In this document: positions 3,973 through 63,384 of the stretch, piece after piece
Numbering within the stretch: the first letter of the stretch is position 1
Layout: each line of letters starts with the position of its first letter
Source of the DNA: Variovorax sp. PBL-H6
GTDB lineage: Bacteria > Pseudomonadota > Gammaproteobacteria > Burkholderiales > Burkholderiaceae_C
DNA length: 64,000 nt
Direction of reading: 5' to 3'
Assembly: GCF_901827155.1 (NCBI RefSeq)
Contig: NZ_LR594659.1
Span: forward strand, 744,001-808,000
Notes under the pieces: model-generated
Told to the model about the DNA's origin: nothing
Seen by the model: only the letters and a program-made list of their open reading frames with translations
Databases searched by the model: none
Program-made: the position numbers and the translations under genes

Positions 3973-4181
<209 letters not shown>

Positions 4182-6986: not shown

Positions 6987-7056
6987 TCAGGCGATTGTCC
7001 CGGAAGTTTTGCGACGGGCGTAAGGAAAACGGGCACTTATCCGGAGAGGTCCGGGC

Positions 7057-7086: not shown

Positions 7087-7093
7087 CCTTCAC

Positions 7094-9405: not shown

Positions 9406-9408
9406 CCC

Positions 9409-10533: not shown

Positions 10534-10604
10534 CGTGAAAACTCCAGAGCGCCGCCGCGGCGCAGAACTTAGACTTGACCGGTCCACTCATTGCCCGGCC
10601 GCCC

Positions 10605-12635: not shown

Positions 12636-12644
12636 GGTGCTGGA

Positions 12645-14127: not shown

Positions 14128-14154
14128 ACGCCGCGCCGGCGCTGCTGCTGGCGC

Positions 14155-14412: not shown

Positions 14413-14474
14413 GATGCGGATGGTGTGACTGGGCCTCGCATCTTAAGTGACCATTCCGTCAATAAACGAGGAGC

Positions 14475-29876: not shown

Positions 29877-30250
29877 TCGCGCGGCTGACCGATTACATCT
29901 ATATCGCAGCGACCATAGGCTTCACCGTCTACGGCCAACTCATTCTCAAGTGGCGCGTCGGATTCCACGGCCACCTGCCCGCGGAACTCGCCGACAAGGT
30001 CCGCTACATTTTCGGCGTGCTGTTCGATCCGTGGGTTGTTTCCGGCTTGACGGCGGCCTTTTTGGCCTCGCTCACGTGGATCGCGGCGATGACCAAGTTT
30101 CAACTCAGCCACGCCTATCCCTTCATGAGCCTGAACTTCGTGATCGTCCTGGCTCTCAGCGCCTGGTTGCTGAACGAGCCGGTCACGCTGGCAAAGGTGT
30201 TTGGCGTCGCGATGATCGTGATCGGTACGGTGGCGATTGCCCGTGGCTGA
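29873..30250 (+). CDS. SMR/EamA-type small transporter (ArnE/ArnF-like)
   Basis: The 125-residue protein has four membrane helices: YIYIAATIGFTVYGQLILKWRV, WVVSGLTAAFLASLTWIAAM, AYPFMSLNFVIVLALSAWLL and LAKVFGVAMIVIGTVAIA. The pattern (GQLILK, a Pro-Phe in helix 3, then a Gly-rich last helix) is that of ArnE/F-like members of the drug/metabolite superfamily, which flip undecaprenyl-phosphate sugars. It overlaps the propeller gene and the following GT-C gene, so it likely flips the product of the GT2 at 25074. Confidence 0.82.
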   Translation: MIARLTDYIYIAATIGFTVYGQLILKWRVGFHGHLPAELADKVRYIFGVLFDPWVVSGLTAAFLASLTWIAAMTKFQLSHAYPFMSLNFVIVLALSAWLLNEPVTLAKVFGVAMIVIGTVAIARG

Positions 30251-31853
30251 AGCAGGCGGGGAAGCACGGCGCTCGCCGGCGTGGCTCGCGTTGGCGACGG
30301 CGCTCGCAACTGCATCGGCGCTGCTGGTCGTCTTGTACATGCTCTCGCCACCGAGGTGGGAGACCAACGACGACGTCGCCATGTCCATGGTGACGCACGG
30401 CTACGGCATCGCCGCGCCGGGCGCACCTCCCTACCTCATGTTCTCGAACGTGCTGTGGGGCTACATGGCGCGCAGCATTCCAGCTTTCGGCGGACTGCTG
30501 GGCTACTCGAGCGCGACGATCGCGGCCCTCCTCATCGCGTGCGCCGGGTTGACGTACGGGATGCTGCGTCTCGGTGCGGGTCGTGTGCTGAGCCTGTCAG
30601 CCGCCGGCCTCCTGTTCGTGCGCCCGATGCTCTTTCCCCAGTTCACCGTGAACGCGGGCATGCTCATGGTCGCAGCTGCGATCCTCTGGTGCGTGCATTC
30701 GGTCGAACGCCCTGCGCGGACACTGGTGGCGAGCGCGTTGCTCGCCCTCTTGAGCTATGTGATCCGGAGCCAGGAGTGTCTGCTCGTGCTGGCGGTCGCC
30801 CTTCCGCTTCTTCCCTGGCGCCCGCTGCGATCCAGGCGCGTGCAGGTCGTCCTGTTGGCAGTCTGCTGTGCCATTGCAGCCGCTGCGATCTTCGATCATC
30901 GTGCGTACCAGACGAAAGAGTGGCAAGAGTTCAATGCACTCAACCCGGTTCGCGCTCGACTGACGGACTTTCGTGCCGGCGAGTCCTTGCGCAACCGCCC
31001 GGACATTGTCGAGCGGCATGGCTACAGCCTCAACGATGTCGCCTTGATGGAAAAGTGGTTCTTCGTCGACCCAGGGATTGCCAATCCGGTAAGGCTGGAC
31101 GCCATGCTGTCAGAGGCCGGTCCTCTGCCGCGCCAGGATCATGCGTGGGCCAATGCGCTGATCAGTCTCAAGGCGCTAGGGCATCCATCGCTCTGGGTTT
31201 TCGTCGTCGTCGGAGTGCTCGGTGCCATGCTGCGGCCGAGCCGAGGGTTGTTCATGGCGTGGGCAATCTTTCTCGCCGCCATCGTCGCGATGGGTTTCCT
31301 CGGGAGGCCCGGCATCATTCGCGTCTACCTGCCGGTGGTCAGCCTCCTGGCGATCGCTCCGCTGCTGCAGGGGGCTCGCGCTGTCTCGGTTCGCAATCGG
31401 GCGCTTTTCGCGTTGCTCCTCATGGCGGTGGCGGTCAATGCGTTCAACGTGCTCTCCGAGTCGAGGTCGACGAACACAGTCGACGCGCACGCGCGCGCCC
31501 GCATCGCCGGGTTTCCTGATTATCCCGTGGTGATCTGGGGCGGAGGCTTTCCCTTCGAGGCCGCGTACCCGGTCCTCGGCGCCTCGCAGGCAGTGCTGGA
31601 CTACAAGCTCTACGGATTGGGCGTCTCGACCCTGGCGCCATTCTCTGTCGCCCACGCGGAAGCCCGCGCAGGCCGGGGAATGATTGCGCGCCTGCTGTCG
31701 GGGGAGGGGGTGCCGCTGGTCGCCTCGGACGAGGAGATCCGCCTGCTTGGCGTTTACTGCCGGGAGCACCACGGTGGACAATTGCAGCAAACCGAAAGAC
31801 CTCCAGAGGCTGCCGGCGGGCCGAGTCGCTATCGTTGCGTCCAAGGACGCTGA
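30243..31853 (+). CDS. GT-C-like integral membrane protein
   Basis: The product of about 536 residues has roughly ten membrane helices. An Asp-Asp motif in the first outside loop (RWETNDDVAMSM) is a GT-C hallmark. A soluble tail begins near residue 400 and is unusually Arg-rich at the end. I prefer the GTG at 30243, eight bases before the SMR stop; a TTG at 30237 is also possible. It is probably the periplasmic transferase that uses the flipped lipid-linked sugar made by this cassette (inference). Confidence 0.72.
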   Translation: MAEAGGEARRSPAWLALATALATASALLVVLYMLSPPRWETNDDVAMSMVTHGYGIAAPGAPPYLMFSNVLWGYMARSIPAFGGLLGYSSATIAALLIACAGLTYGMLRLGAGRVLSLSAAGLLFVRPMLFPQFTVNAGMLMVAAAILWCVHSVERPARTLVASALLALLSYVIRSQECLLVLAVALPLLPWRPLRSRRVQVVLLAVCCAIAAAAIFDHRAYQTKEWQEFNALNPVRARLTDFRAGESLRNRPDIVERHGYSLNDVALMEKWFFVDPGIANPVRLDAMLSEAGPLPRQDHAWANALISLKALGHPSLWVFVVVGVLGAMLRPSRGLFMAWAIFLAAIVAMGFLGRPGIIRVYLPVVSLLAIAPLLQGARAVSVRNRALFALLLMAVAVNAFNVLSESRSTNTVDAHARARIAGFPDYPVVIWGGGFPFEAAYPVLGASQAVLDYKLYGLGVSTLAPFSVAHAEARAGRGMIARLLSGEGVPLVASDEEIRLLGVYCREHHGGQLQQTERPPEAAGGPSRYRCVQGR

Positions 31854-33228: not shown

Positions 33229-34281
33229 ATGCAAACGCCATTCAGCAACAAGACCTTATTGATCACAGGCGGCACGGGGTCCTTCGGAAACGCCGTCATC
33301 AAGCGCTTTCTCCAGACGGACATCGGCGAGATCAGGATCTTCAGCCGGGACGAGAAAAAACAGGACGACATGCGCAAGCGTTACAACCACGCCAAGCTCA
33401 AGTTCTACATCGGCGACGTGCGTGATGCACACGGCCTGGCCGCTGCCATGCGTGGCGTCGACTACGTGTTCCACGCGGCCGCCCTCAAGCAGGTGCCGTC
33501 GTGTGAATTCCATCCGATGCAGGCGGTTCGCACCAACGTACTCGGCGGCGAGAACGTCCTCGAGGCCGCGGTCGCCGCGGGCGTCAAGCGGGTGGTGTGC
33601 CTGAGCACCGACAAGGCGGTCTATCCGATCAACGCCATGGGCATCAGCAAGGCGATGATGGAGAAGGTCATGGTGGCCGCGAGTCGAAACCTCGAAGGCA
33701 CCGGGACCGTGATCTGCGGCACGCGCTACGGCAACGTGATGGCCTCCCGGGGGTCGGTCATTCCGCTGTTCGTGCAGCAGGTCCTCGACGGCCAGGAGAT
33801 CACGATCACCGACCCGGACATGACGCGCTTCATGATGACGCTGCCGGACGCGGTCGACCTGGTGCTCTACGCCTTCGAGCACGGGCAGAACGGCGACATC
33901 TTCGTCCAGAAGTCGCCTGCCGCCACCATGGATGTCCTCAGCCAGGCCATCCTGGACCTGATGAAGAAGAAGGACCACCCCATTGCCATCATCGGGTCGC
34001 GGCATGGCGAGAAGCTGTTCGAGTCGCTCCTCAGCAAAGAGGAGCGCGCCTGCGCGGAGGACCTGGGCGACTACTTCCGTGTGCCGCCGGACGGACGCGA
34101 CCTGAACTACGCGAAGTTCGTCGAAGAGGGCGAAAGCCGCATCACGCGGGCTCTGCACGGCGAAGAGTACAACTCGCACAACACCACGCGCCTGGACGTC
34201 GAGGGCATGAAGCAACTGCTTCTGAGGCTCGACTTCATGCAAAAGGTCGCTCGCGGCGAGCCAGCCGTGCTGGAAGGGTGA
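33229..34281 (+). CDS. fnlA: UDP-GlcNAc 4,6-dehydratase / 5- (and 3-)epimerase
   Basis: FnlA (WbjB/CapE) starts UDP-L-FucNAc synthesis from UDP-GlcNAc. The 350-residue SDR has GGTGSFG at residues 14-20, FSRDEKKQDDMR, HAAALKQVPSCEF and VVCLSTDKAVYPINAMGISKAMMEKV. The usual catalytic Tyr before the Lys is Met in this family, as seen here. The ATG at 33229 is chosen by homology; 188 bases separate it from wecE, so it may have its own promoter. It is followed by fnlB after four bases. Confidence 0.93.
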   Translation: MQTPFSNKTLLITGGTGSFGNAVIKRFLQTDIGEIRIFSRDEKKQDDMRKRYNHAKLKFYIGDVRDAHGLAAAMRGVDYVFHAAALKQVPSCEFHPMQAVRTNVLGGENVLEAAVAAGVKRVVCLSTDKAVYPINAMGISKAMMEKVMVAASRNLEGTGTVICGTRYGNVMASRGSVIPLFVQQVLDGQEITITDPDMTRFMMTLPDAVDLVLYAFEHGQNGDIFVQKSPAATMDVLSQAILDLMKKKDHPIAIIGSRHGEKLFESLLSKEERACAEDLGDYFRVPPDGRDLNYAKFVEEGESRITRALHGEEYNSHNTTRLDVEGMKQLLLRLDFMQKVARGEPAVLEG

Positions 34282-34285
34282 TCGG

Positions 34286-35413
34286 GTGAAGGTGCTCATC
34301 ACCGGTGCCGGCGGTTTTGTCGGCAAGAATCTCCGCCTGGCGCTCTCCGAGCGCAAGGACGTGGAGGTCGTCGCTTTCGAATCCGGCAACAGCGTCTCAC
34401 AGCTGCCGGAACTGCTGCACGGCGTGACATTCGTGTTCCATCTCGCGGGCGTCAATCGGCCGCAGGACCCGAAGGAGTTCACCACGGGAAACCTTGAGCT
34501 GACGCAGTCGCTGTGCGACGCGGTTGCCCGGGAAATCGAGGCGAGCGGCAGGAAGATTCCCTTTGTCCTGACCTCCTCCATCCAGGCTGAGCGGGACAAC
34601 GCCTACGGCCAGAGCAAGCGAGGAGCGGAGCAGGCTGTCCTGGCCGCCGCAAAGCGCCATGGCTTCCCGGCGCATGTCTTTCGGCTGCCCAATGTGTTCG
34701 GCAAATGGTGCCGCCCGAACTACAACTCGGCCGTGGCCACCTTCTGCCACAACATTGCTCGCGGCCTCCCGATCGAGGTGCGCGATCCGTCAGCGCCTCT
34801 GGCGCTCGTCTACATCGACGACCTCGTGGCGCGTTTCACCGAACTGCTGGACGGCGCCGATGCATCGGTGGACGCCGCCGGCTTCGCGACGGTAGCGCCC
34901 CAATACTCGACCACGGTGGGCGAGGTGGCGGACCTGATCGCCAGATTCAAGGAAAGCCGGGGCACCTTGGTGACCGAGCGCGTCGGGACCGGGCTCGTGA
35001 GGGCCTTGTATTCGACTTACGTCAGCTACTTTCCGGTGGAGGAGTTCAAGTACGGCGTGCCGCGCCATGCGGACCCGCGTGGCGTGTTCGTGGAGATGCT
35101 CAGAACGCACGACAGCGGCCAGTTCTCCTACTTCACCGCGCATCCCGGCATCACCCGCGGCGGCCACTACCACCACAGCAAAACCGAGAAGTTCCTGGTC
35201 ATCAAGGGCCATGCGCGCTTCAAGTTCCGCCACATGCAGACCGGCGAGGCTTACGAGTTCACCACGAAGGGCGACGAGGCCGAGATCGTCGAGACCGCGC
35301 CGGGCTGGACGCACGACATTACCAACATCGGGCAGGACGAGATGATCGTCATGCTGTGGGCGAACGAGCTTTTCGACCGGGCCAAGCCGGACACCTACGC
35401 CAGTCCGCTCTGA
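34286..35413 (+). CDS. fnlB: UDP-2-acetamido-2,6-dideoxy-hexulose reductase (CapF/FnlB)
   Basis: FnlB reduces and rearranges the FnlA product in the UDP-L-FucNAc pathway. The 375-residue protein has an N-terminal SDR domain (MKVLITGAGGFVGKNL, HLAGVNRP, AYGQSKRGAEQ with catalytic Tyr and Lys) and a C-terminal cupin (HPGITRGGHYHHSKTEKFLV, NIGQDEMIVMLWANELFD) with metal-binding histidines, the diagnostic CapF arrangement. It uses a GTG start at 34286. Confidence 0.93.
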   Translation: MKVLITGAGGFVGKNLRLALSERKDVEVVAFESGNSVSQLPELLHGVTFVFHLAGVNRPQDPKEFTTGNLELTQSLCDAVAREIEASGRKIPFVLTSSIQAERDNAYGQSKRGAEQAVLAAAKRHGFPAHVFRLPNVFGKWCRPNYNSAVATFCHNIARGLPIEVRDPSAPLALVYIDDLVARFTELLDGADASVDAAGFATVAPQYSTTVGEVADLIARFKESRGTLVTERVGTGLVRALYSTYVSYFPVEEFKYGVPRHADPRGVFVEMLRTHDSGQFSYFTAHPGITRGGHYHHSKTEKFLVIKGHARFKFRHMQTGEAYEFTTKGDEAEIVETAPGWTHDITNIGQDEMIVMLWANELFDRAKPDTYASPL

Positions 35414-35424: not shown

Positions 35425-36561
35425 ATGAAGAAGCTGAAAGTCATGTCGGTGGTCGGCACGCGACCCGAGATCATTCGTTTGTCGCGTGTGTTCGCGGCGC
35501 TGGACGAGCACTGCGAACACGTGCTGGTCCACACGGGGCAGAATTACGACTACGAGTTGAACCAGGTCTTCTTCGATGACCTGAAGCTGCGCAAGCCGGA
35601 TCACTTCCTGAACAGCGCAACCGGGAGCACCAGCGCGGCGCACACCATCGGCAATCTCATCATCGAGGTCGATCGTGTCCTCGGAGAAGTCCAGCCTGAG
35701 GCAATGCTGGTGCTCGGCGATACCAACAGTTGCCTGTCGGTGATTCCGGCCAAGCGACGCAAGATTCCGATCTTTCACATGGAGGCCGGCAATCGATGCT
35801 TCGATCTGCGGGTGCCGGAAGAGATCAATCGCCGAATCGTCGATCACACGGCTGACATCAATCTCACCTACAGCACGATTGCACGCGACTACCTGCTGCG
35901 GGAGGGATTGCCGCCCGACCAGGTGATCAAGACCGGCAGTCCCATGTACGAGGTGCTGCACTATTACATGCCCCAGATCCAGGCATCCGATGTGCTGCAG
36001 CGCCTGGACCTGACCGAGGGCAACTACTTCGTGGTCAGTGCACATCGAGAGGAGAACATCGAGTCAGACGCCTCTTTCGGCAACCTGGTCTCCACCTTGA
36101 ACGCGATAGCCGAAGACCACGACCTGCCCGTGATCGTTTCCACGCACCCGCGAACGCAGAAACGAGTCCAGGCCACGTCGACCAGCTTTCACCCGCAGGT
36201 CCGCCTACTGAAGCCTCTCGGCTTCCATGACTATGTGAAGCTGCAGATGTCTGCGAGGGCAGTGCTTTCGGACAGCGGCACGATCAACGAAGAATCCTCG
36301 ATCCTGAATTTCCCGGCGCTCAACCTGCGCGAGGCCCACGAGCGGCCCGAGGGCATGGAGGAGGCCGCAGTGATGATGGTGGGACTGGGCGTCGAGCGCG
36401 TCCGACAGGGCCTTGCCATCCTCGAAACGCAACCGCGAGGGGCTGATCGGAGCCTGCGCTTGGTCGCCGACTACAGCATGCCCAATGTTTCCGACAAGGT
36501 GCTTCGGGTCCTCCACAGCTATGTCGACTACGTGAATCGCGTTGTGTGGAAGAAATATTGA
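35425..36561 (+). CDS. fnlC: UDP-N-acetyl 2-epimerase forming UDP-L-FucNAc (WbjD/FnlC)
   Basis: FnlC inverts C2 of the sugar to complete UDP-L-FucNAc. The 378-residue protein is a non-hydrolysing 2-epimerase: VMSVVGTRPEIIRLSRV, VHTGQNYDYELNQVFF, VLGDTNSCLSV, IFHMEAGNRCFD, SAHREENIE and LSDSGTINEESSIL. The FRCFD-like segment and absence of the hydrolytic features favour the FnlC branch, and its place after fnlAB confirms it. It is followed after four bases by the TPR/GT gene. Confidence 0.92.
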   Translation: MKKLKVMSVVGTRPEIIRLSRVFAALDEHCEHVLVHTGQNYDYELNQVFFDDLKLRKPDHFLNSATGSTSAAHTIGNLIIEVDRVLGEVQPEAMLVLGDTNSCLSVIPAKRRKIPIFHMEAGNRCFDLRVPEEINRRIVDHTADINLTYSTIARDYLLREGLPPDQVIKTGSPMYEVLHYYMPQIQASDVLQRLDLTEGNYFVVSAHREENIESDASFGNLVSTLNAIAEDHDLPVIVSTHPRTQKRVQATSTSFHPQVRLLKPLGFHDYVKLQMSARAVLSDSGTINEESSILNFPALNLREAHERPEGMEEAAVMMVGLGVERVRQGLAILETQPRGADRSLRLVADYSMPNVSDKVLRVLHSYVDYVNRVVWKKY

Positions 36562-36565: not shown

Positions 36566-39502
36566 ATGAGCAAGTTGAAGGCGTTGCTGCGTCCGTGGTT
36601 TTCTCGATCCATCAATTCGCAGAGTCTCTGGGCGCAAGCTGATCTCGCCCTCATCGCCGGCAATCAGTCGCAAGCCACAGCAATCTATCGGGGCTTGGCG
36701 AGCGCCAAGCTGAAGAGCCCGGAGGCGTATTTGTATGCCGGCCTCTCCGAGCAACGACTGCACAGGCCGAGCGAGTCGATTGCCGCGATGGAAGCGGGAC
36801 TTCGACAGTACCCGGATCTGCCGTTGTTGCTGGAGCACTATGTACGCATCTGTTCCGAACTCGACCAGATCGATCGCGCCATTCGGCATTTCGCTGCGGA
36901 CAAGGAAGATGAAAGGCAAGTCTGCGAGCAGATGTTCGACAGGTATCCGGACTCCCAGGTTCAGTCCAGCTTGATCGCGCATTGCCTGCAAAGCGGCTTC
37001 ACAGACCTGGCCGGACAAAAGGTCAGTCGCCTCCTGGAAAGCTCGGATGACAACGTCCTCCTCTGGCGGCTTGCGGATGTGCTCTTGTCTCACGAGCGCA
37101 GCGAGGAAGCGATGGCCATCTACCGGCGATTGGCGGCACGCCCTGCGGAAAATCCACTGGGGCTCGTGCATTCGGCTCTCTCGGAATACAGGCTGGGCAA
37201 TCCGGAGCGAGCTGCCGATATGTTCGAGTCGGGGATCCGGACCTTCCCCGATGCGCTGGAGCTGATCGATCACTTTGCACTCATTTGCGCGCAGCTGCGC
37301 CAGATGAATCGCGTGGTCCGGACTGCAGTCCCGGGCGCGAATTCGGAAGTGGAAGCTTGCGAGGTCCTTTTTGCCAGGTTCCCCGATCCACAAATCCAGG
37401 TGGGACTGATCGACCATTGCCTCAGCCACGGGCTCGAGCAGCTTGCGGAGCAAAAGATCCGTTCGATCTGGGAGAGTTCGGACGACGCTCTCGCGCTTTG
37501 GCAGGTTTCTGAGCTGCTGTTGCTCAGGGAACGGACCGATGAGGCAAATGCTGTTCACCGCAAATTGGCTGCACGTATCCCCAAGGATCTGGAGGACTAT
37601 CATCTCTCGAGCTTGGCCTTCGTCTGTTTGTCCGAATTGGACGAATGCCTGGAACTGCTCGAACAGGGGCTCCTTCACTATCCGGGCGCAGCCAAGCTCA
37701 TGGCGCTGTACGTGAAGATTTGTGCCAAGAGATTCGAGTACGACCGCTATAGGGACTTCCTGGATTCGCTGGAAGCGTCAAAACTGCCACCGCCCGTCTC
37801 CATGCTGGACTTTTACCGGGCCAGCATGAGTGCTCCAGTCGATTTCGTGATCAATCTTCAGGACATCGAACTGCGAGTTGGGCCAAGCGATGTGCCCTTT
37901 CTGAGGCAGGACTTTCTCACTTATCTTCGGAAGAATCCCCAGCCCCTCAAGATTGCAAAGGTGCTGGTGTTCTTCTGCCGCTACCTGCACCTGCCTGCAG
38001 ATTTCAGTGCGGGGGTCTACGATGCCCTGCGACTTGCGTTCCAAGGCCATGGCAAGGCGAGCAGGGCGCTTCAGATCCTTGACGAAATGACGCCGCCCAT
38101 GATCCCGCGGCATCCGATCTCGCCCGACATCGACATTGGCGGGTTCATCGAGGCCGCCCTTCGCATCTCTGAAAATCTGGTGGAGCTGACGGAGCCGATC
38201 GCGGATATGACCAACAATTGGACGCCTTGGCAGTACATCTTCTGCCTCGTTGCGCCCGAACTGTATGGGACTGCGATGGGCGCCTTCGAGAAAGTGGTCT
38301 TCAATACCTGGCCCAAGCTCAACTTCACAGCGGCGCACGTCAGGGATGCGGTCGATGTTCAAAAGAGATCAGGAAAGAAACTGCGCCTCGGGTTCATCGT
38401 TCACGATTCGATGCCGATGATGTCGGGGTTTTTGCCTCGGCTCGACAAGGATCGCTTCGAGACCGTATTCCTGCGTCCTGGAAAGGCTGGCAAAACCGCT
38501 GCGGCCAAAAGCTGGATTGCTCGCGCTGGCAAGACCGTTCAGTATTCGGATGTCGACATGTATGCCGCTATCCAGACCATCGCCGACGAAGAACTCGACA
38601 TCATCGTGTCGGGTCCTTCCATTGCAGCGGTGTTCTACCCGATGATGGCCCGGCTCGCACCGCTCCAGATGGTTCTGTTGGAGCCGAACTGGACCGATGG
38701 TCTGACTCACGCGGACTACTACATTTCCTGGCAGCCGGCCGAGCCAGTCCAACTGGACGACTTTTACAAGACGAAGGTGTCGCTCTTCCGGCATCCTCCC
38801 TACTGGATCGAAAGGCCGGAGGTGGAGCAGAAGGGCGCCATCAGCCCGGAAGCACGCGCAGAAATCAGGAAGAGGTTGCTCAATGCGGGCCCTGATGCAC
38901 GCATTTACCTGTGCGCCAATACGCCTCCCAAGATCCATCCCGACATGGACGGGATCTTTCAAGAGATATTGGAGCGCGATAAAGAGGCGATCCTGGTGCT
39001 TCTTCGCGGGGAATATCCTCCGGCCAAGACACTGAGAAGTCGCTTGCGTGAAAGACTCGGTCCTTGCTACGAAAGGGTCGTCTTCATGTCGACCATGAGC
39101 AAGGACGATGCTCACTTGTTGCTGCAGTCGGTGGATTGCTGCCTGGATTCCTATCCTCTCTGCGGCATGTCCTCGAGCTTCGACGGCGCCATGCTGGGTA
39201 TACCGACGGTCACGCTGCCTGCGGACGTTCCATTTGGCCGCTGGACTGCAGCCATCTATGAATACATCGGCGCCGAGACGCTGATCGCGAAGAGCCGGGA
39301 CGACTACGTCAATTTGGCGTTGAGGTTGGCATCGGACAAGGACTGGCGAGGTCGGCTCTCATCGGAAATCAAGCAAAAGTCGTCCCGCTACGTGGAGAGT
39401 GAGCCCAGCAGCCAGGAACTCGAGGCATTTCTTCTGGAAGCCTGGAACAGGAAACTGCAGGGCCTGGCGCCATCTAACTGGATGAACGGCGGGTGGCAAT
39501 AG
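36566..39502 (+). CDS. TPR protein with C-terminal GT41/OGT-like transferase domain
   Basis: The 978-residue protein has about 400 residues of helical TPR-like repeats followed by a domain like the catalytic half of O-GlcNAc transferase/GT41. The latter shows KLRLGFIVHDSMPMMSGFL, PLQMVLLEPNWTDG, IYLCANTPPKIHP, VVFMSTMSKDDAHLLL and DSYPLCGMSSSFDGAMLGIPTVTLP, where OGTs bind UDP-sugar. The helical half has an exact super-repeat of 145 residues (Trp22, Trp167, Trp312 begin LW-type helices). I start at the ATG 36566. It directly follows fnlC, so it may be the transferase for L-FucNAc or may glycosylate a protein (both inference). Base composition is lower in GC than its neighbours by eye. Confidence 0.78.
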   Translation: MSKLKALLRPWFSRSINSQSLWAQADLALIAGNQSQATAIYRGLASAKLKSPEAYLYAGLSEQRLHRPSESIAAMEAGLRQYPDLPLLLEHYVRICSELDQIDRAIRHFAADKEDERQVCEQMFDRYPDSQVQSSLIAHCLQSGFTDLAGQKVSRLLESSDDNVLLWRLADVLLSHERSEEAMAIYRRLAARPAENPLGLVHSALSEYRLGNPERAADMFESGIRTFPDALELIDHFALICAQLRQMNRVVRTAVPGANSEVEACEVLFARFPDPQIQVGLIDHCLSHGLEQLAEQKIRSIWESSDDALALWQVSELLLLRERTDEANAVHRKLAARIPKDLEDYHLSSLAFVCLSELDECLELLEQGLLHYPGAAKLMALYVKICAKRFEYDRYRDFLDSLEASKLPPPVSMLDFYRASMSAPVDFVINLQDIELRVGPSDVPFLRQDFLTYLRKNPQPLKIAKVLVFFCRYLHLPADFSAGVYDALRLAFQGHGKASRALQILDEMTPPMIPRHPISPDIDIGGFIEAALRISENLVELTEPIADMTNNWTPWQYIFCLVAPELYGTAMGAFEKVVFNTWPKLNFTAAHVRDAVDVQKRSGKKLRLGFIVHDSMPMMSGFLPRLDKDRFETVFLRPGKAGKTAAAKSWIARAGKTVQYSDVDMYAAIQTIADEELDIIVSGPSIAAVFYPMMARLAPLQMVLLEPNWTDGLTHADYYISWQPAEPVQLDDFYKTKVSLFRHPPYWIERPEVEQKGAISPEARAEIRKRLLNAGPDARIYLCANTPPKIHPDMDGIFQEILERDKEAILVLLRGEYPPAKTLRSRLRERLGPCYERVVFMSTMSKDDAHLLLQSVDCCLDSYPLCGMSSSFDGAMLGIPTVTLPADVPFGRWTAAIYEYIGAETLIAKSRDDYVNLALRLASDKDWRGRLSSEIKQKSSRYVESEPSSQELEAFLLEAWNRKLQGLAPSNWMNGGWQ

Positions 39503-39575: not shown

Positions 39576-41252
39576 GTGATTATTCAGCGTCGAGCGCCCT
39601 CAGCAGCAAGATCGAAGGACTGGGCGTCCCTGGTCATCCTCGCATTCGCCATCGCGACGGCGGTGGTCGCCCTGCTGATTCCGATCTACTCCGACGAGAT
39701 CGCGATCCAGATGGCCCGCGCACGCTTCCTGATCGAAGGAGGCGCGCTGCTGAACCTGTTCCCCCAATGCCGTCCGTTGCTGGCAGCCATCCCGGCATCG
39801 TGGTATCCAGGTGCCGTCTTCAATGCCATCGTGTATTCGGATGCGACGGGCATCGGTCTCCGGATCAGGGGAATCGCACTGTGTACGGCTTGGCTGCTGC
39901 TGCTGTGGGTGTGGGCTGGCCGCCATCCGCAAACGCTTGTTCCGAGGCGGCGCTTCCAGGCGCTGATCCTCTCGTTCAACCTGCTTGGCGTGCTGCCCTT
40001 CGTGCTCGTCCTCGCGCGCTCGGAGCAGCTCCTGGTGCTGGGGCTCGTCGCGCACTGCATGCTCGCGCTGTTCTGGCCCGCCAAGGCATCGGACGGCTTG
40101 CTCATGAAGAGCCTGAAATGCGCGGCGCTCTTCTTGATGGGATCGGTGTTCCTGCTGACCCATCCCAAGGCCTTGTTCTTTGCGCCGGTGGTGGTGGCCT
40201 CCACCTGGCTCGTCTTTCGAGATGCTGGGCGGCTGTGGGCGGCCGGCGCGATGCTCGTGACCGGCTTCGCCATTTTCCAGTCGTTCCAGTATGCCCAGCT
40301 GTCTGCGAGCTGCGCAGGCGCGCCAGAGATGGCGAAAGTTCTCGCGCAGCACACATTGGACTTCCGTCTGCTCGCGAGCGACAAGCCTGCTCTTCTGCGC
40401 GAGGCCTTGCGCAACCTGACTTCCTCGCTCGGACTGGTGATGGATCGCATGCCGGTGACCACCGCCTATCAATCGAGCTGGCTGCCGGCGATCCAAAGCG
40501 AATGGATGGCGCCATGGCTCAACCGTTTCGGAATGCTGCTCAAGGCCAGCCTGTACGCGCTGGCCCTGACGTTGCTCGTTGCCGCTGTCCTTCGCTTCGC
40601 AGTGCAAGTCGCGGGCAAGCGGCTCGACAGGACCGTCCTGCTCGGCATCGCGCTGGTCGCAGGGCTGGTGCTGCACGGCACCGTGTACAACCCGAGTGCC
40701 TGGCATTTCTACACGCCTGGCCTCATCGTGCCTGCGCTGGTCGTGCTGCTGTTGCTGGTGCTGCCCGCAGCGATGACCGCACCGAACTGGATGCGCTCGG
40801 CCTCGGGTGCTTTTGCGTGCTATTGGATGTTGCTTGCCATGGCGAGCATGGTGCTGTTGCTGGCCCTCCAGACGCCCGAGCTGCTGAGAATTGCGCGCAC
40901 CGGCGACGCCGTGATCGTGGGTCAGCCGTTGTCGACGCCGGCATTCGTGCGCGAGGAGCAGCGCGCACGGCTGTTCGCGCTAGCCAAGCGATGCGACATC
41001 AAGGATGGCGATGATCGCCTGGTGCTGGACGGCGGCGCCTATTTCCACTTCCAGAGGGGGAGGCAGCCGATCAACGTGTTCTACGTGTCCGACTATGCGT
41101 TCGGAATGGATATCGGCCCCAAGCTCCCGGAGTTCCTGAAGAATCTCGATAGCGGGGGCGTCCTTTCGCGATGCGAGTACTTGACCAAGGCTTTGCGTGA
41201 CAAAGCGACCGTGTCGGGCCAGATGTGCTGTGTTTCAAAGGCAGATTTCTAA
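39576..41252 (+). CDS. GT-C-like integral membrane protein
   Basis: The 558-residue protein starts at a GTG and has about ten membrane helices, the first followed by an outside acidic motif (IYSDEIAIQM) usual in GT-C enzymes. The last 120 residues are soluble and contain cysteines (AKRCDIKDG, SRCEYLT, QMCCVSKADF) that could form disulfides in the periplasm. It is the last gene of the plus block and converges with another GT-C gene. Substrate unknown; polyprenyl-linked sugar transfer is inferred from layout only. Confidence 0.7.
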   Translation: MIIQRRAPSAARSKDWASLVILAFAIATAVVALLIPIYSDEIAIQMARARFLIEGGALLNLFPQCRPLLAAIPASWYPGAVFNAIVYSDATGIGLRIRGIALCTAWLLLLWVWAGRHPQTLVPRRRFQALILSFNLLGVLPFVLVLARSEQLLVLGLVAHCMLALFWPAKASDGLLMKSLKCAALFLMGSVFLLTHPKALFFAPVVVASTWLVFRDAGRLWAAGAMLVTGFAIFQSFQYAQLSASCAGAPEMAKVLAQHTLDFRLLASDKPALLREALRNLTSSLGLVMDRMPVTTAYQSSWLPAIQSEWMAPWLNRFGMLLKASLYALALTLLVAAVLRFAVQVAGKRLDRTVLLGIALVAGLVLHGTVYNPSAWHFYTPGLIVPALVVLLLLVLPAAMTAPNWMRSASGAFACYWMLLAMASMVLLLALQTPELLRIARTGDAVIVGQPLSTPAFVREEQRARLFALAKRCDIKDGDDRLVLDGGAYFHFQRGRQPINVFYVSDYAFGMDIGPKLPEFLKNLDSGGVLSRCEYLTKALRDKATVSGQMCCVSKADF

Positions 41253-41273
41253 CGCCGGCTTCCAAACGGGCAC

Positions 41274-43475
41274 TTAGTCGCGGGTCGGCCGTACCTCGAA
41301 CTCGCTGAGCCGCGCCGACAGACCCGAGGCCGCTGGGTCGATCAAGGAATCGAACTCGATGGTATTGATGCCTGTCCGCAATGCTCCCCGGGGCACGGAA
41401 GCGACGAATCGAAGATCCTGCCCCCACGTGATCGGCAGGTCGACTCCGTTGACCTGCACCCGCAGGCTGCTCTGGATCGCCGCCGACAGAATGATGTCGA
41501 ACCTACCCGAAAGTACATAGGGCTTGTCGGCAGATTCAAGCGGGAACAGCAGCCTGGAATGCTCCTGGGACTTCCAGGCAGCGGCGTCATAGCGCAGGTG
41601 TCGCCGCATCCATTCAGCCTCGTGCCAGCCGTTTCCGCGGGTGGGCTTTTCCAGGCTCCACCACGTGCCGAAGTCCCAGCGGTAGCTCGCCGTGGCACCG
41701 GCTGGCTTGAACAAGCCGAGCCGATCTCCGCCGCCGGCCGGTGTCTGCCTGAGGATGGCTCGGTAGCGCCTTGCCACTGGCGTCTCCGCCTCTTGAAGGC
41801 GCTGGCGATAGCCATCGAGGGCCGGATCGCCCGTGGCATGCCCGTCGATATCGATCACGAGGGGCTGCATTTGCGACTTGGGGCGGGCAAATGGCTTGGT
41901 CTGCGGCGGCGGAATCCCGGAGGGCGCGTCGGCGTATGTGAAGGACCATTCGTCCGCGCCTTCGATGCAGCGGCCGGGCCGGTTCAAGCCGTCCATCCGT
42001 TGCCAGTAGCCGCCCGGCATGAGGCAGATCTCGGGCGGCGCGATGGGCCTGCCATAGAGGTAGGTCAGCACATGGACCAGGTTGTCGCGCAGCATCCAGA
42101 CATGGGCGAGCTGGTTCGAATGGTCCAGGATGAGGAGCGACCGATGGCCTTGGCTGTCCGCATCGTAGTTTTCTACGATGGTCCGCAGCACCTTCCGCTG
42201 GGCTTCGGCAATGTCGATGTAGTGATGGAACTGGAAGAGCTGGGCCGCGGCGCCGCAACTGAGAAGCCACAGCGCCACGACGCCCCCCAATGGGCGCAGC
42301 AGCATGCCCAGACCGATCACGAGCACCAGGACCACCAGCGCGGCCCCGAAACTCGCGAACAGGAAGGTGCGCTGTGAGATCTGCAGGTGCGAGTTGGAGA
42401 ACATGAATGGCACGTAGCCGAGCGCGAGCAGAACCACGCCCATGGCAGCCATGCGCAGCAATGGCGGGCCGCCGTCTTGGCGCATCGTTTCCGAACCGGG
42501 CAACAGCGGCAGGCGGCTGCGTGGGCTCAGCAGAACGCAGAGTGCGCAGATGCCTCCGAAAGCCAGCAGGTACCAAGGGCTCGTGAACTCTTTGCGAGCC
42601 ATGCCCCAGGCATCGAGCCAGCCGCCTGCAAGGGCACGGGCAAAGCCGGTATCGAACAGCCGCGGCAGCGAGCGATACAAGGCCGCGAACGGTGCATGCC
42701 GATCGGTGATGGTCTGCTGGTAGGAATCGCCTCCCGACGCCGATGCGTACAGGACGTAAAAGACATACGAGACCGCCGCCGTGAGCCAGGCCAGGGTTGG
42801 CCAGGGGTTCTTGCGCACGACCTGCCACGCCCCGACAAACCCGTGACGGCACCACTGCACGAGCAGGGGGAGCATGCAAAGCATCAGCGCGACCTCGTAC
42901 ATCAGCTGCGCGGCCAGCATGAATATCGCGGCTGCGGCGATGCCGAGCCTGCGCGACCAACCCGGCGCTTGTGTCTGCGCATGAACCAGCATGGCCGATC
43001 CGAGCAGGATCAGCGCCATCGACATATTGATGTGCTGGCTGCGGAACGACAACTGCATCGTATCGGCGGGATACAGAAGCACGAGCAAGCCGAACAGTGC
43101 GCCCCAGCGAAGAGAGCGAGTGATGCAGGCGCCGATATACGCGCAGGTGGCGCCCTTGACGAGCAGGATCGCGATCAGGATCCAATGCCACGCATCAAAG
43201 GAATCCGGGTTCAGCATGTATCCCAGCGCGTGGGGGAACACGGTCAGCGGACGAAGTCGATGAGCCTCCAGCAGCGTGTGCGGTTGTACGAACAGCACCG
43301 GGCCGGAGATGGTGAAGATGCCGAGGACGTCCCATTCCTCGATGAGGCCGTGCAGGCTGAACCCGAACGGGATCCACAGCAGCGCGATCGCGACGGCCGT
43401 GGGCAGGATCAGGGCAACCAAGGTCCTTCTCTTGAGCTTCATGGAACTCTGAACGTCATTGTTATCTTCGCGCAT
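41274..43475 (-). CDS. Large GT-C-like membrane protein with periplasmic C-terminal domain
   Basis: The product of 733 residues has about eleven membrane helices over the first 430 residues. An acidic first loop (LHGLIEEWDVLG) is typical of GT-C proteins. A soluble beta-rich C-terminal part follows (SLEKPTRGNGWHEAEWM; a final Ig-like segment from LSGRFDIILSAAIQ onward). The start may be the ATG at 43475 or 43442 (MKLKRRTL); neither has a clear ribosome site. It is the last gene of the minus operon after a GtrA gene, so it likely transfers the sugar flipped by that GtrA. Confidence 0.7.
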   Translation of the reverse strand: MREDNNDVQSSMKLKRRTLVALILPTAVAIALLWIPFGFSLHGLIEEWDVLGIFTISGPVLFVQPHTLLEAHRLRPLTVFPHALGYMLNPDSFDAWHWILIAILLVKGATCAYIGACITRSLRWGALFGLLVLLYPADTMQLSFRSQHINMSMALILLGSAMLVHAQTQAPGWSRRLGIAAAAIFMLAAQLMYEVALMLCMLPLLVQWCRHGFVGAWQVVRKNPWPTLAWLTAAVSYVFYVLYASASGGDSYQQTITDRHAPFAALYRSLPRLFDTGFARALAGGWLDAWGMARKEFTSPWYLLAFGGICALCVLLSPRSRLPLLPGSETMRQDGGPPLLRMAAMGVVLLALGYVPFMFSNSHLQISQRTFLFASFGAALVVLVLVIGLGMLLRPLGGVVALWLLSCGAAAQLFQFHHYIDIAEAQRKVLRTIVENYDADSQGHRSLLILDHSNQLAHVWMLRDNLVHVLTYLYGRPIAPPEICLMPGGYWQRMDGLNRPGRCIEGADEWSFTYADAPSGIPPPQTKPFARPKSQMQPLVIDIDGHATGDPALDGYRQRLQEAETPVARRYRAILRQTPAGGGDRLGLFKPAGATASYRWDFGTWWSLEKPTRGNGWHEAEWMRRHLRYDAAAWKSQEHSRLLFPLESADKPYVLSGRFDIILSAAIQSSLRVQVNGVDLPITWGQDLRFVASVPRGALRTGINTIEFDSLIDPAASGLSARLSEFEVRPTRD

Positions 43476-43506
43476 GGGGAATGTGCTCGTCGGCCGGATC
43501 GCTGCT

Positions 43507-43878
43507 TCAGCGAAACAACCACCGGCTCGCCACGAAGGTGAGGGGGATCGTGACGGCGATGCTCGCCAGCGGTGCGAGAGTGGGCGGAAGGCGCAGCAGA
43601 TCGACCCATCCATAGACGATCAGCGCTCCCAGTCCGTACTGCGCCAGGTACACGAGTGGCAGCAGCGCTGCCTTTCCCTCGTTGCGCGGCGCCCCAAAGA
43701 CGAAGAAACGGTTGAGCGCATACGCCAGTGCGATCCCGGAGACGAAAGCGATCGCGTAACTCACCCAGTACGGCATGAACCGGAGCAGGACCAGGTACAG
43801 AAGGTACGTACCGAGCGTGTTCAGGCCCCCGGAGATCAGGAAGCGGATCAGCGGGGACGCAATCTGCCGCGCAATCAT
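43507..43878 (-). CDS. GtrA family membrane protein (putative flippase)
   Basis: The 123-residue protein has four membrane helices with the GtrA pattern: LIRFLISGGLNTLGTYLLYL, VSYAIAFVSGIALAYALNRFFVFG and a final IPLTFVASRWLFR. It is a paralogue of the GtrA protein at 19350 but only distantly similar. It sits between fdtD and a GT-C gene, with the partner GT2 two genes upstream. Confidence 0.85.
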   Translation of the reverse strand: MIARQIASPLIRFLISGGLNTLGTYLLYLVLLRFMPYWVSYAIAFVSGIALAYALNRFFVFGAPRNEGKAALLPLVYLAQYGLGALIVYGWVDLLRLPPTLAPLASIAVTIPLTFVASRWLFR

Positions 43879-43885
43879 GGCGCGA

Positions 43886-44833
43886 TCAGCCCTGCGTCTT
43901 TTCCACAGCCTTCAGGCGCAGGAACTCCGCGTGGTCCCGGATGTAGTCGTTGCCGTCGTAATAGTCGGATGCGAACACCAGCAGCACTGCGTCCGACGAA
44001 TAGCGGTATTGAATGCCCCAGGTCATCGGCGGCAAGTAGATGCCGATCGACGGATGATCCAGTTTGAACTCCTGGCGCCGGGTCCCGTCGTCGGCCACCA
44101 CGCTGACTTCGCCCTTGATCGCGACAAGGAACTGATGGCATTTGTGATGCGCATGTTCTCCACGAGTCTCGGCCGTCGGCACGTCGTAGACGATGAAGTA
44201 GCGCATCGGCTTGAACGGTATGTCGCGCTCGAACTCGCCCACCGAGAGGCTGCCTCGCATGTCCGGGACCGCGCGCAGCTGGTGCAGGGTGACACCGGCT
44301 ACCGAAGTGGCCGTCACCCCGGGGGCCTTGACGCCCTGTGCTTCCTGCTTCGATACGGCCTGCGCATCTGCGTCCACGTAGCCCGTGATGCGCGCCGGAT
44401 TGCCCACCACGATGGCATTCGGCGGCACCGAACGCGTCACCACCGCGCCGGCGCCGATCATCGCGTTGCGCCCGATGGTGATGCCAGGCAGGATGGTTGC
44501 ATTGGCACCCAGCGAGGCGCCTGTCTGGATGGTGGTGCGCCCAAAGCGCTCAGGGTACCGCTTGCTGCGCGGGAAGAGGTCGTTGGTGAAGGTGACGTTC
44601 GGCCCGACGAACACGTCGTCTTCGATGCGTACGCCGTCCCACACCTGCACGCCGCATTTGATGGTGACACGGTCGCCGATGACGACGTCGTTCTCGATGA
44701 AGACGTGGTCGCAGATGTTGCAGTCGCCGCCGATGCGTGCCTGCGGAAGCACGTGAGCGAACGCCCAGACCCGCGTGCCGGGCCCGATCTGCTGGCTTTC
44801 GCACAGCGCATGAGGGTGCGTGAAGTGATCCAT
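43886..44833 (-). CDS. fdtD: Bifunctional N-acetyltransferase / dTDP-4-keto-6-deoxyglucose 3,4-ketoisomerase (FdtD-like)
   Basis: The 315-residue protein fuses two enzymes of dTDP-Fuc3NAc synthesis. Residues 1-155 form a left-handed beta-helix acetyltransferase ([54 protein letters not shown]). Residues 180-315 form a cupin 3,4-ketoisomerase of the FdtA/WxcM type ([63 protein letters not shown]). The same domain order is known in FdtD-type enzymes. It takes the RfbB product and acetylates the FdtB product, so the genes form one pathway although FdtB lies two genes upstream. Confidence 0.88.
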
Positions 44834-44836
44834 GGC

Positions 44837-59655: not shown

Positions 59656-61795
59656 ACAAATCTTGAGACGCTATGTGAGGCGTGTCGCCAAGGGCGCCTG
59701 GTGGCTTGCCACGCCTTGGCGCATCGGTGAGAGGCTGGACTTCCTGCGCCAGCGTGCGGAAGCACAGGCGCGCGCGACCGAGTTCGCGCTCCTGGTCGAC
59801 GCAGAGCGGATGCGGCGCGCGGCGCGCGAGAGCGGGATCCCGATTCCTGCGGTTGAGCCGCTCGATCTGTTCGACGATGCGGCGGTGTGCAATGCGGGCG
59901 GACTGCCGCTCGAGAAAATACTGTGGCCGCCCGTGGCGCCCCAGGACGTCACGGACCGTTGGTCGGCCGCGCGGTTCCTGATCGATCAGTGGCGCAAGCG
60001 CAGCGACCTGCGCTCGCTCTACCCGCTTGCACTCGAAGGCAACCGGCACACCGACTTCGGGCACTGGTTGCAGAACGAAGGCGCCGGCGAACTGCACCTC
60101 GGCGAGGTGGCGTTGGCGCTGACGCTGGACGTGCTGGATGCCGGCATGGCCGATCGCGCGCGACAGTCGCTGCTGGCCAACCAGATGGTGGCGCCCGTGT
60201 GGCCGCATGGCTTGACCCCGGCCGGCATGCCGCGCCTTTTCCGGTGGCTCATGCGGCACAGTGCCGGCGAACCCGGCCCGAGGCACGAAGAGCTCTGGTG
60301 GCTCTTTCTGCAAGCAGCGCAAAACCCGGCGCGCGAGCTGATGCTGGCCTATTCCTTCACGCCGGCATGGCAGGAACTGCACCCCGATGGCCTCACGGTT
60401 ATCGGGCGCGAGGCCTTCTGCGCCTGGTTTGCTTCGGAATACGGTGCCTCGGGCGGCTGGGTCGACTCGTCGACCTGGCCGGATTGGGAGAACCCGGCAT
60501 TGCAGATCCGAACCGCGTACTGGGCGCGCGACACATGGCGCGCGGCCCATCCCGATGCACTGGCGGATGAAGACCGTGCACGCGCGCTGCTCGATTGGCT
60601 TTCGTCACCGGCAGCTCGGCTGTCGGATGCAGCCCGCATCTGGTGCGCCCGCCTCGATGCAGGCGCCGTCGCTCGCGAGCTCGTCCGGCCGGGGGTCAAC
60701 ATGATCGGCCATTTCTGCTATGCGTCCGGGCTGCGCGTCTCGGCCGAGTCCATGGTCGAGGCGATGGGGCGCGTCGGGGTGTCTACCTCGCTGCGGGATG
60801 TCTGGACTGACGCCAAGGATGATCCTCATCATGTCGACTTTCGAGGCATGGAGGTCCACGATGTCACCGTCCTGCATACCCAGCCGGAGCCCTTCTTCGA
60901 CGAGGCGTATCGACGCGCGCACCTGTTCGAGCGCCACCCTCGGACCTATCGGATCGGCTATTGGTACTGGGAGTTCGACACCATTCCCGATTCGTGGGTG
61001 GACCATGCCGAAAAGGTCGATGAGGTGTGGACTGCCACGGAATTCGTCGCCCGAGGGCTGCGCGATCGGCTTTCCATTCCGGTCCGCACGTTGTTTCCCG
61101 GGGTCAAGCTGGCGCCCTACACCTCACGCAGCAAGAGCTACTTCGGGCTGAGGGAAGGTGTATTCACATTCCTCTTCACGTTTCACATGATGAGCGTGAT
61201 GGAGCGCAAGAACCCCAAGGGGCTGATCTCTGCGTTCAAGGAAGCATTCGGAGAGGCTGATGGCGCCCAGCTCGTGCTCAAGACCTCGTTCGGCGACCGC
61301 CACCCGGCGCAAATGCAGGAACTGCGCGACGCCGCCGCCAACGCCAACATCACCATCATCGACCAGGTCCTGAGTCCCGACGAGGTCCTCTCCCTCATGG
61401 ATGCCTGCGATGCCTACGTCTCGCTCCACCGCAGCGAGGGCCTCGGCCTGACGATGGCCGAGGCCATGCTCATGGGCAAGCCGGTAATCGCCACCAACTT
61501 CTCCGGCAACGTCGACTTCATGGACGAGAGCAACAGCCTGCTCGTCCCTTACGAGCTGGTGAAGCTGGGCAAGCCCATTCCGCCCTACGACGCCGACCTG
61601 GAGTGGGCCGAGCCGTCGATCGGGCACGCGGCGCAGCTCATGCGCCGGGTCTACGACAACCAGGCCTGGGCACGGGAGGTGGGGGCGCGCGGCAAGGCGA
61701 GCGCCGAAGCCAATCTGTCGCTGGAAGCCGCAGGCCGGCGCATCGCCGGTCGGCTCGAGGAGATCAGATCGTTGCGGCGGCGAGCGACTGGCTGA
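59648..61795 (+). CDS. Large GT4 glycosyltransferase with N-terminal helical domain
   Basis: The 715-residue protein has about 350 helical residues of unknown role at the N-terminus (Trp- and Arg-rich; RWSAARFLIDQWRKRSDLRSLYPLAL resembles other polysaccharide-locus proteins), followed by a GT4 domain. It contains HMMSVMERKNPKGLISAFKEAF and SLHRSEGLGLTMAEAMLMGKPVIATNFSGNVDF, with the EX7E pair. The ATG at 59648 overlaps fcl by eight bases. Its last 32 bases overlap the end of wzt on the other strand. It may add L-fucose, given fcl upstream (inference). Confidence 0.85.
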   Translation: MAEQILRRYVRRVAKGAWWLATPWRIGERLDFLRQRAEAQARATEFALLVDAERMRRAARESGIPIPAVEPLDLFDDAAVCNAGGLPLEKILWPPVAPQDVTDRWSAARFLIDQWRKRSDLRSLYPLALEGNRHTDFGHWLQNEGAGELHLGEVALALTLDVLDAGMADRARQSLLANQMVAPVWPHGLTPAGMPRLFRWLMRHSAGEPGPRHEELWWLFLQAAQNPARELMLAYSFTPAWQELHPDGLTVIGREAFCAWFASEYGASGGWVDSSTWPDWENPALQIRTAYWARDTWRAAHPDALADEDRARALLDWLSSPAARLSDAARIWCARLDAGAVARELVRPGVNMIGHFCYASGLRVSAESMVEAMGRVGVSTSLRDVWTDAKDDPHHVDFRGMEVHDVTVLHTQPEPFFDEAYRRAHLFERHPRTYRIGYWYWEFDTIPDSWVDHAEKVDEVWTATEFVARGLRDRLSIPVRTLFPGVKLAPYTSRSKSYFGLREGVFTFLFTFHMMSVMERKNPKGLISAFKEAFGEADGAQLVLKTSFGDRHPAQMQELRDAAANANITIIDQVLSPDEVLSLMDACDAYVSLHRSEGLGLTMAEAMLMGKPVIATNFSGNVDFMDESNSLLVPYELVKLGKPIPPYDADLEWAEPSIGHAAQLMRRVYDNQAWAREVGARGKASAEANLSLEAAGRRIAGRLEEIRSLRRRATG

Positions 61796-62510
61796 CAGCG
61801 TCGCTCGAAGACTGCTCGACGATCCGCCCGTGCTCCAGGTGGATCACCCGGTTGCACTCCTTCGCGATCAGGCCGGGCGAGTGCGACGCCAGCACAAGAA
61901 TGCCGGACTTCGCCACCACGTCCTTCATCCGCTGCTCGGCTTTCTCGGTGAACTCCGCATCGCCCACCGAGAGCCACTCGTCCATCAGCAGGATGTCGGC
62001 CTCGACGCTGGTCGAGATGGAGAACGCCAGGCGCATCAGCATGCCGGTGGAATAGGTGCGCACCGGCATGTTGACGTACTCGCCCAATCCGCTGAACTCG
62101 CAGATCTCGGGGGTGAGCGCGTCGATCTGCTTCTTGCTCATTCCCATGACCAAGCCGCGCAGCATGATGTTCTCGATTCCTGTGGCATCGGATTCGATGC
62201 CAAGCGCCGGATCGATCAAGCTCGAGACGGTGCCCTGCCGGACGAACTCTCCTGAGGAAGGCTCGTAGACACCCGCCAGCGCGCGCAGCAGCGTCGATTT
62301 GCCCGCGCCATTGTGGCCCACCAGGCCAAGGCGGTCGCCGCTCTTGAGCTCCAGGTTGATGTTGCTCAGTGCCTGCACCACGTTGACGCCGGTTTCCTTG
62401 CCGAAGCGCCCGCCGGTCACGGAGGCGGCCAGCGTCTTCTTCAGCGAAGCAGCGCCCGCACCGTAGATGGGGAAGTTGACCGAAACATTCTTGAGGGAAA
62501 TGAAAGCCAT
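61764..62510 (-). CDS. wzt: Polysaccharide ABC transporter ATPase (Wzt/KpsT-like)
   Basis: The 248-residue ATPase has Walker A GHNGAGKST, a typical INLELKSGDRLGLVG lead-in, signature YSTGMLMRLAFS and Walker B ADILLMDEWLSVGD, all characteristic of Wzt/KpsT polysaccharide exporters. It stops after the nucleotide-binding domain and lacks the extra carbohydrate-binding domain of Wzt proteins that sense a chain cap. With Wzm it exports the assembled glycan to the periplasm. It is last in the manC-wzm-wzt unit. Confidence 0.92.
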   Translation of the reverse strand: MAFISLKNVSVNFPIYGAGAASLKKTLAASVTGGRFGKETGVNVVQALSNINLELKSGDRLGLVGHNGAGKSTLLRALAGVYEPSSGEFVRQGTVSSLIDPALGIESDATGIENIMLRGLVMGMSKKQIDALTPEICEFSGLGEYVNMPVRTYSTGMLMRLAFSISTSVEADILLMDEWLSVGDAEFTEKAEQRMKDVVAKSGILVLASHSPGLIAKECNRVIHLEHGRIVEQSSSDAVSQSLAAATI

Positions 62511-62517: not shown

Positions 62518-63384
62518 TCAGAGCCAGTAGACCACGCGGCGGCGATATTTCGCGAACAGCAGGCCCGAGGCGACCACGCTCAGCACCGTCCATCCCAGGA
62601 TGCCCCACCAGTTGTGGGCATCGGCCACGCCGCCCATCAGGGGCGTGCGCAGCAGGTCGAGCATCTGCGCGAACGGGTTGTAAAGGATGTACTGCGCGCG
62701 ACCGGGGAGGCTCTCCGGGAGCCAGAAGACCGGCGTCAGGAACATCAGCATCTGCATCACGCTGGTGACGATCTGGGTGACGTCGCGAAAGCGCGTGCAG
62801 ACCAGGCCCAGCGCCAATCCGAGGGCCTGGGCATTGATGAGCAGCAGCAGGAAGGCCGGTATGAAAAGCAGCGCCGACCAGGACAGCGAGATGCCCGCCC
62901 ACAGCGCCACCGGAACATAGAGCACGATCTGGTGCGCGAACTGGATCAGGTTGCGCGCCATGCTGCGCCAGACGAAAAGGCTGATCGGGAAGTAGCCCTG
63001 CTTCAGGTAGTTGCTGGAGCCGATGAAGGCGTTGCAGGCGTCGGTCACCATGCTGGAGAAGAAGCTCCAGAAGATGATGCCGAGCGCCAGGTGCGGGAAG
63101 AACTTCGACAGCTCGGTGCCGAACAGCGAGCTGTACAGCGGCCCCATGCCACCGATCATGGCGCCCATGCTGAGGGTCAGCCACAGCGGACCGAGCATCG
63201 AGCGACGGTAGCGCAGCACGATGTCGAACCAGGCCAGCGTCCACCAGATGTCGGTGCGGCGGGAGCCTTCCCACCAGTCGGACCACGCGCTGCGATGAAG
63301 ATTGGAGTGCGCCTGGCTCACTGGAGTACCTTCGACTTGGGGTGCGGTGCTATTTGCCTTCGGAGCGGCGGTGCTGCTGCTCAT
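62518..63384 (-). CDS. wzm: Polysaccharide ABC transporter permease (Wzm/KpsM-like)
   Basis: The 288-residue ABC-2 permease has about six membrane helices. It carries the typical [18 protein letters not shown] near the amphipathic entry helix, [20 protein letters not shown] and ITSVMQ-like middle helices, and [31 protein letters not shown]. The ATG at 63384 overlaps the manC stop by four bases. It forms the export channel with Wzt. The assembled polysaccharide made by the genes in this window is the likely substrate. Confidence 0.92.

Follow-up and report, generated by a model that had tools for sequence, protein, structure and literature searches.

What does a glycosyltransferase of GT41, a family best known for modifying proteins, do directly behind the genes for UDP-N-acetyl-L-fucosamine (UDP-L-FucNAc) synthesis in a polysaccharide locus of Variovorax sp. 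PBL-H6? The gene in question lies in a stretch of 64,000 nucleotides of contig NZ_LR594659.1 (positions 744,001 to 808,000; hereafter the window), in which a preliminary description, made from the letters alone, had noted a product with an exact, threefold repeat of 145 residues and an OGT-like C-terminal half, and had called its position after fnlC unusual. We propose, with a probability of about one half, that the gene encodes a cytoplasmic GT41 transferase that moves L-FucNAc, a rare surface sugar, from UDP-L-FucNAc onto a surface polysaccharide. The anatomy of the protein and its linkage to the fnl genes are solid; the function we infer.

The gene (Table 1) begins with an ATG and encodes 978 residues. 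Its open reading frame (ORF) starts 4 nucleotides after the fnlC stop at 36561, on the strand shared by fnlA, fnlB and fnlC, and an alternative TTG start at 36542, giving 986 residues, is also open. By sequence and fold the protein is a member of GT41: residues 777-938 match Pfam Glyco_transf_41 with 63.2 bits (cut-off 25), a search of the PDB returned OGT (E 5e-17), and AlphaFold and structure comparison gave the C-terminal half a GT-B fold of the OGT type, the fold of OGT, SPINDLY and NGT that motifs had first suggested. K789 and D873 are invariant across 27 sequences, and in a profile alignment they pair with the lysine of YKIDP and the aspartate of GHTTGMD in human OGT, which we take to be UDP-contacting residues. 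No Glycos_transf_1 (GT4) domain was matched in the protein, Glyco_transf_41 being found instead, and the NCBIfam NGT model reached 12.3 bits (cut-off 1000); NGT chains, which have an all-alpha domain ahead of the GT-B half, cover residues 396-967 at a root-mean-square deviation of about 5 Å.

The N-terminal half is a tetratricopeptide repeat (TPR)-like supra-repeat, as had been described, with TPR_14 above the Pfam cut-off and support from AlphaFold and structure comparison. The 34-residue periodicity of a canonical TPR arm left no signal at offset 34 in this protein; for most of P0101-P0120, the OGT-like matches, the strongest offsets are multiples of 34. The period is 145 residues, the distance that exactly separates W22, W167 and W312. 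When residues 1-440 were compared with themselves without gaps (BLOSUM62), offset 145 scored +326 and offset 290 +83, with none of the remaining offsets from 20 to 299 above -82, and identity at other offsets averaged 7.4% with a maximum of 12.8%. Smith-Waterman scores among the three 145-residue segments were 241, 156 and 115, against means of 28-31 and maxima of 46-58 in 300 shuffles per segment pair, so that the units align above background, and the offset and shuffle tests rule out a chance or low-complexity repeat. Unit 3 is as close to unit 1 (27 of 98 residues identical) as to unit 2 (Table 1), ends near residue 405, and is followed by 47 residues of which one agrees with the tail of unit 2; at the DNA level, units 1 and 2 share 227 of 435 positions. 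The repeat is two full blocks and a 98-residue partial third, 28-39% identical to one another. The claim of three exact copies holds for the register and for two full blocks, and fails for the sequence and for the third copy, which stops short.

The surroundings of the gene are known for 12 copies in 10 genomes, out of a family of 96 members. Nine copies lie within 1.5 kb of fnlB (the window, L015, L017, L018, L019, L003, the first copy of L004, L032 and L005/L071), and the second L004 copy is 5.6 kb from fnlB in the same cluster. The complete fnlABC set precedes the GT41 gene in five Variovorax loci, two Legionella genomes and Rhodomicrobium, which makes the position after fnlC a recurrent arrangement rather than a local oddity; in Hyphomicrobium (L003) fnlB alone adjoins it, and a FnlC relative (64%) is encoded on another contig. 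Within the genus, fnlB was found in 17 of 101 genomes and the GT41 gene in five, all of them among those 17 (p 7.8e-5, uncorrected for kinship). Of the window genes between 20.9 and 63.4 kb, the GT41 gene alone had a counterpart in each of the ten loci compared (E 1e-8, with 60% of the window protein covered), and the other window glycosyltransferase genes had no match at this threshold in the Hyphomicrobium, Legionella and Rhodomicrobium stretches (one L003 protein matches 55082 at 28%, under the coverage threshold). The linkage to fnl genes in Variovorax, Legionella, Rhodomicrobium and Hyphomicrobium supports UDP-L-FucNAc, the product of FnlABC, as the donor, which we consider quite probable.

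The place after fnlC is mostly taken by a different enzyme where the GT41 gene is missing in the genus. In 11 of the 12 same-genus fnlB genomes that lack it, a GT4-like gene directly follows fnlC on the same strand; nine of these are 75-100% identical to the query from L069 and two 31%, and the twelfth genome (L070) gave no match to that query. An initiating sugar-phosphate transferase was matched in all 12 of these loci and a single Wzx query in seven, with no Wzm/Wzt match within 20 kb in any of the 12. The GT4 and the initiating transferase both went unmatched in the 20-64 kb searched at each of the genus's five GT41 loci; p-values for this exclusivity are descriptive only, since the queries were drawn from the loci compared. 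A Wzm/Wzt pair of ATP-binding cassette (ABC) exporter genes accompanies the GT41 gene in the loci of five of the ten genomes (the window, G095, Hyphomicrobium and two Legionella); the only matches in Rhodomicrobium and Ancylobacter, weak ones (27-28%) to the ATPase by itself, were left out of this count. WbuB has its place beside the fnl genes in Plesiomonas fnl clusters, according to excerpts of PMC6467956.

The two halves of the protein evolve differently. The catalytic lobes are conserved and the helical half diverges faster: they were more identical than repeats and linker in 26 of 26 comparisons, as in P0021, whose lobes are 72 and 75% identical to those of the window protein, with 39% in the repeats and 37% in the linker. 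The locus L017 shows a gene-sized exchange of the GT41 gene, as if swapped. Its fnlA, fnlB, fnlC and the gene after GT41 are 95, 91, 92 and 87% identical to the window DNA, and a match at 93.4% ends at 36564; its GT41 gene is 63-70% identical in DNA and has one block more, and the protein is nearer to an orphan copy in L016 (64%) than to the window protein (52%). The exchange is not the sole difference of this locus, because 41274 is also replaced there, by a gene at L017 15179-16930 for 583 residues that has no match in the window.

Several GT41 copies stand in settings of their own. The orphan in G095 (L016 10505-13879) lies within a segment, 3752-14468, that carries upstream a tRNA-Pro gene (3752-3828) and, judged by eye, an integrase-like gene (4059-5300), and a 22-nucleotide direct repeat (86%) flanks the stretch at 3941 and 14447; this copy may be the cargo of an integrated element. 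The Legionella quinlivanii contig (L004:2142-12076) has fnlABC followed by two GT41 copies, 56% identical, that flank a gene for a relative of the 39576 protein. In Rhodomicrobium (L005:12646-16299) and Ancylobacter (L006:13411-17177) a similar set of three genes follows the GT41 gene, by eye resembling xanthine dehydrogenase subunits.

The family is rare and well bounded. Counting the query, 96 of 122 matches score at least 528 bits and three score 274-285, below which the matches listed (120 of 122) reach at most 168 bits. The GT41 gene was found in five of 101 genomes of the genus, in two of 11 of the genus of L. quinlivanii (itself included), and in one of 399 genomes of the family, one of 369 of the class and one of 399 of the order, the window's genome being the single carrier in all three; in the order of Rhodomicrobium it was one of 397, Rhodomicrobium itself. 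These last four scans considered no more than two candidates per genome and may have missed some. A pattern-based scan gave five loci and is not a census. A phage origin was rejected (50,697 phage records held no match, and viral contigs, scanned once by pattern, yielded no relative), as was a plasmid origin, for which 58 plasmid records gave only partial matches below 60% identity, none covering 80% of the query.

Block number varies widely among the 96 members, some of which may be truncated metagenome proteins: 20 have no full block, 29 have one, 26 two, 16 three, one four, three five and one six, and the partial block usually adjoins the linker. For the 85 full blocks of those proteins among P0001-P0034 with at least two, the nearest relative was the block at the same position in another protein in 66 cases, a block of the same protein in 10 and another in nine. 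Judged from such comparisons, the blocks around the window protein are old and positional (66 of 85), and a recent tandem duplication in the window gene is ruled out, its full blocks being 38-39% identical and nearest relatives mostly positional. Duplication is likely more recent in P0056, P0009, P0010 and P0030: neighbouring blocks of P0056, which is encoded on a 1.6-Mb contig and whose block identity, known from the protein sequence alone, could also stem from an assembly error, are 91, 100, 100 and 50% identical, and those of P0009 and P0010 up to 85 and 82%. P0098, a relative of 1128 residues outside the main family (284 bits), has a strong period of its own of 135 residues, given which such repeats may have had more than one origin.

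On the reading that we prefer, the products of fnlA, fnlB and fnlC directly upstream would supply UDP-L-FucNAc, which the cytoplasmic GT41-fold enzyme would use to add L-FucNAc to a surface polysaccharide under assembly, in the place of the WcaI/WbuB-like GT4 of other fnl loci in the genus; the polymer would often leave by an ABC exporter. The GT-B half would perform the conserved reaction, and the helical half, blocks and linker together, would be the part that diversifies and would bind either the acceptor glycan or the machinery of assembly; arm and linker probably choose the partner or acceptor. Were the donor UDP-beta-L-FucNAc and the enzyme inverting, as other GT41 enzymes are, the linkage formed would be alpha-L-FucNAc. 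A glycan reading needs no new chemistry, since HMW1C is reported to form sugar-sugar bonds (excerpts of PMC3983070). The GT4 in the same place and the polysaccharide loci favour a glycan as acceptor, which we regard as somewhat the likelier kind.

A number of observations weigh against this proposal. Characterised GT41 enzymes mostly modify proteins, and the window holds other glycosyltransferases that could use L-FucNAc. FnlA falls below its curated cut-off (Table 1). The Ancylobacter GT41 gene (L006) stands without a detected FnlB at E 1e-60 (a FnlC relative has 54%), the second G095 copy (L016) is far from the G095 fnl locus, and Rhodomicrobium has fnlABC and GT41 with no further polysaccharide gene recognised nearby by eye. 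Wzm/Wzt was not found in five of the ten loci (in G094 and G034 the stretch searched covered the upstream side only, and in G016 the contig ends). For the two of the 11 GT4 proteins that were scanned, the best glycosyltransferase model was the WcaI family NF007640, at 126.6 and 172.7 bits against a cut-off of 276, and the WbuB label is our assumption, taken from the position as in Plesiomonas.

An unlikely though still substantial possibility is that the enzyme glycosylates proteins in the manner of FlmG or NGT, placing L-FucNAc from a shared UDP-L-FucNAc pool on one or more secreted or surface proteins recognised by the arm, with the fnl linkage reflecting donor supply only. The combination of GT41 fold and TPR-like arm, known from OGT and SPINDLY, the usual behaviour of GT41 and the stand-alone fnlABC-GT41 set of Rhodomicrobium favour a protein acceptor, as does FlmG, whose TPR half binds flagellin in excerpts of PMC7591256; however, most loci are polysaccharide loci, a GT4 occupies the place in sister fnl loci and no target protein is apparent. 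That a polysaccharide or protein transferase here draws on some other nucleotide sugar made by the locus, with fnlABC a mere neighbour, appears distinctly improbable: the locus contains several sugar pathways, the gene occurs in Ancylobacter though no FnlB was detected there, and the second G095 copy is elsewhere, but the fnlB linkage persists across three bacterial classes while other pathway genes change. That the protein is a scaffold or regulator without catalysis, its GT41 half a relic, as the large helical arm and a family without known activity might suggest, is very hard to reconcile with two lobes that are the most conserved part and with the invariant K789 and D873. Returning to the transfer of L-FucNAc to a glycan, it would be a long shot that the arm is a modular ruler or scaffold, in which block number (0-6 full), tuned by whole-block duplication, sets which glycan, glycan length or partner the GT41 half reaches.

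Table 1 Features of the window around the GT41 gene (positions in the window).
Feature	Position	Strand	Basis
GT41 glycosyltransferase gene with supra-repeat arm	36566..39502	+	Pfam Glyco_transf_41 and TPR_14 above cut-off; PDB OGT match E 5e-17; fold
Full block 1, residues 18-162	36617..37051	+	56/145 identical to block 2, gapless; nine predicted helices
Full block 2, residues 163-307	37052..37486	+	Repeat alignment; AlphaFold
Partial block 3, residues 308-405	37487..37780	+	27/98 identical to block 2; likeness lost past 405
Helical linker, residues 406-604	37781..38377	+	AlphaFold; whole-length alignment with NGT chains only, among the 50 matches listed
GT-B catalytic half, residues 605-945	38378..39400	+	AlphaFold and structure comparison; K789, D873 invariant in 27 sequences
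fnlA-like UDP-GlcNAc 4,6-dehydratase/5-epimerase	33229..34281	+	Best NCBIfam model TIGR04130 FnlA, 604.6 bits, under cut-off 730
fnlB-like UDP-sugar reductase	34286..35413	+	NCBIfam NF047837, 625.7 bits, cut-off 500
fnlC-like UDP-GlcNAc 2-epimerase	35425..36561	+	Pfam Epimerase_2; NCBIfam wecB model 225.2 bits, cut-off 210
Conserved neighbour, probably membrane protein (by eye)	39576..41252	+	No Pfam match
ABC exporter ATPase (Wzt-like)	61764..62510	-	Pfam ABC_tran
ABC exporter membrane subunit (Wzm-like)	62518..63321	-	Pfam ABC2_membrane

Among the neighbours, the gene at 39576 recurs in four other Variovorax loci (50-88%) and two Legionella loci (28-29%). Together with 30243 and 41274 it encodes one of three large proteins without a Pfam family, membrane-like by eye (29873-31853, 39576-45778), which have EamA, GtrA and GT2 genes near them and may be transferases of the GT-C type. 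A called ORF at 3824-4060 consists of HM and LV dipeptide runs from simple DNA repeats and is probably no gene.

A rare GT41 family that keeps with UDP-L-FucNAc genes, in the place of a GT4, suggests that this fold has also been recruited for surface polysaccharides, and the gene-sized exchange beside fnlC may point to a transferase that determines serotype yet belongs to neither GT4 nor GT2, the usual families. With block numbers that vary naturally between members, one of which has identical neighbouring blocks, the family lends itself to studying what TPR arms contribute to glycosyltransferases. In open-licence PMC, no title or abstract among the matches listed linked fnl genes or FucNAc to a GT41 or TPR transferase.

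Within GT41, the window protein is about 15-20% identical to XcOGT, TtOGT, human OGT and SPINDLY, from which it differs by the lack of a detectable 34-residue periodicity and by its 145-residue blocks and long helical linker, whereas HMW1C/NGT enzymes have no TPR blocks and their model scores far below its cut-off here. FlmG likewise joins an N-terminal TPR half and a C-terminal GT-B half in one soluble protein, but has 596 residues and uses pseudaminic acid (excerpts of PMC7591256), and the two were compared by architecture alone. The WcaI/WbuB-like GT4 enzymes share the place in the fnl cluster, directly after fnlC, but have a GT4 fold and about 410 residues and are often fused to an initiating sugar-phosphate transferase. 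In the capsule polymerase CpsD the TPR part is needed for elongation, and in chain-length proteins the length of a coiled coil sets that of the chain; although these belong to other enzyme families and the excerpts of both sources (PMC11666461, PMC11231755) make no link to large repeated blocks, they too have a helical arm joined to polysaccharide-assembly enzymes, and an arm acting as a ruler would do with an OGT fold what coiled-coil rulers do for the O-antigens of ABC exporters.
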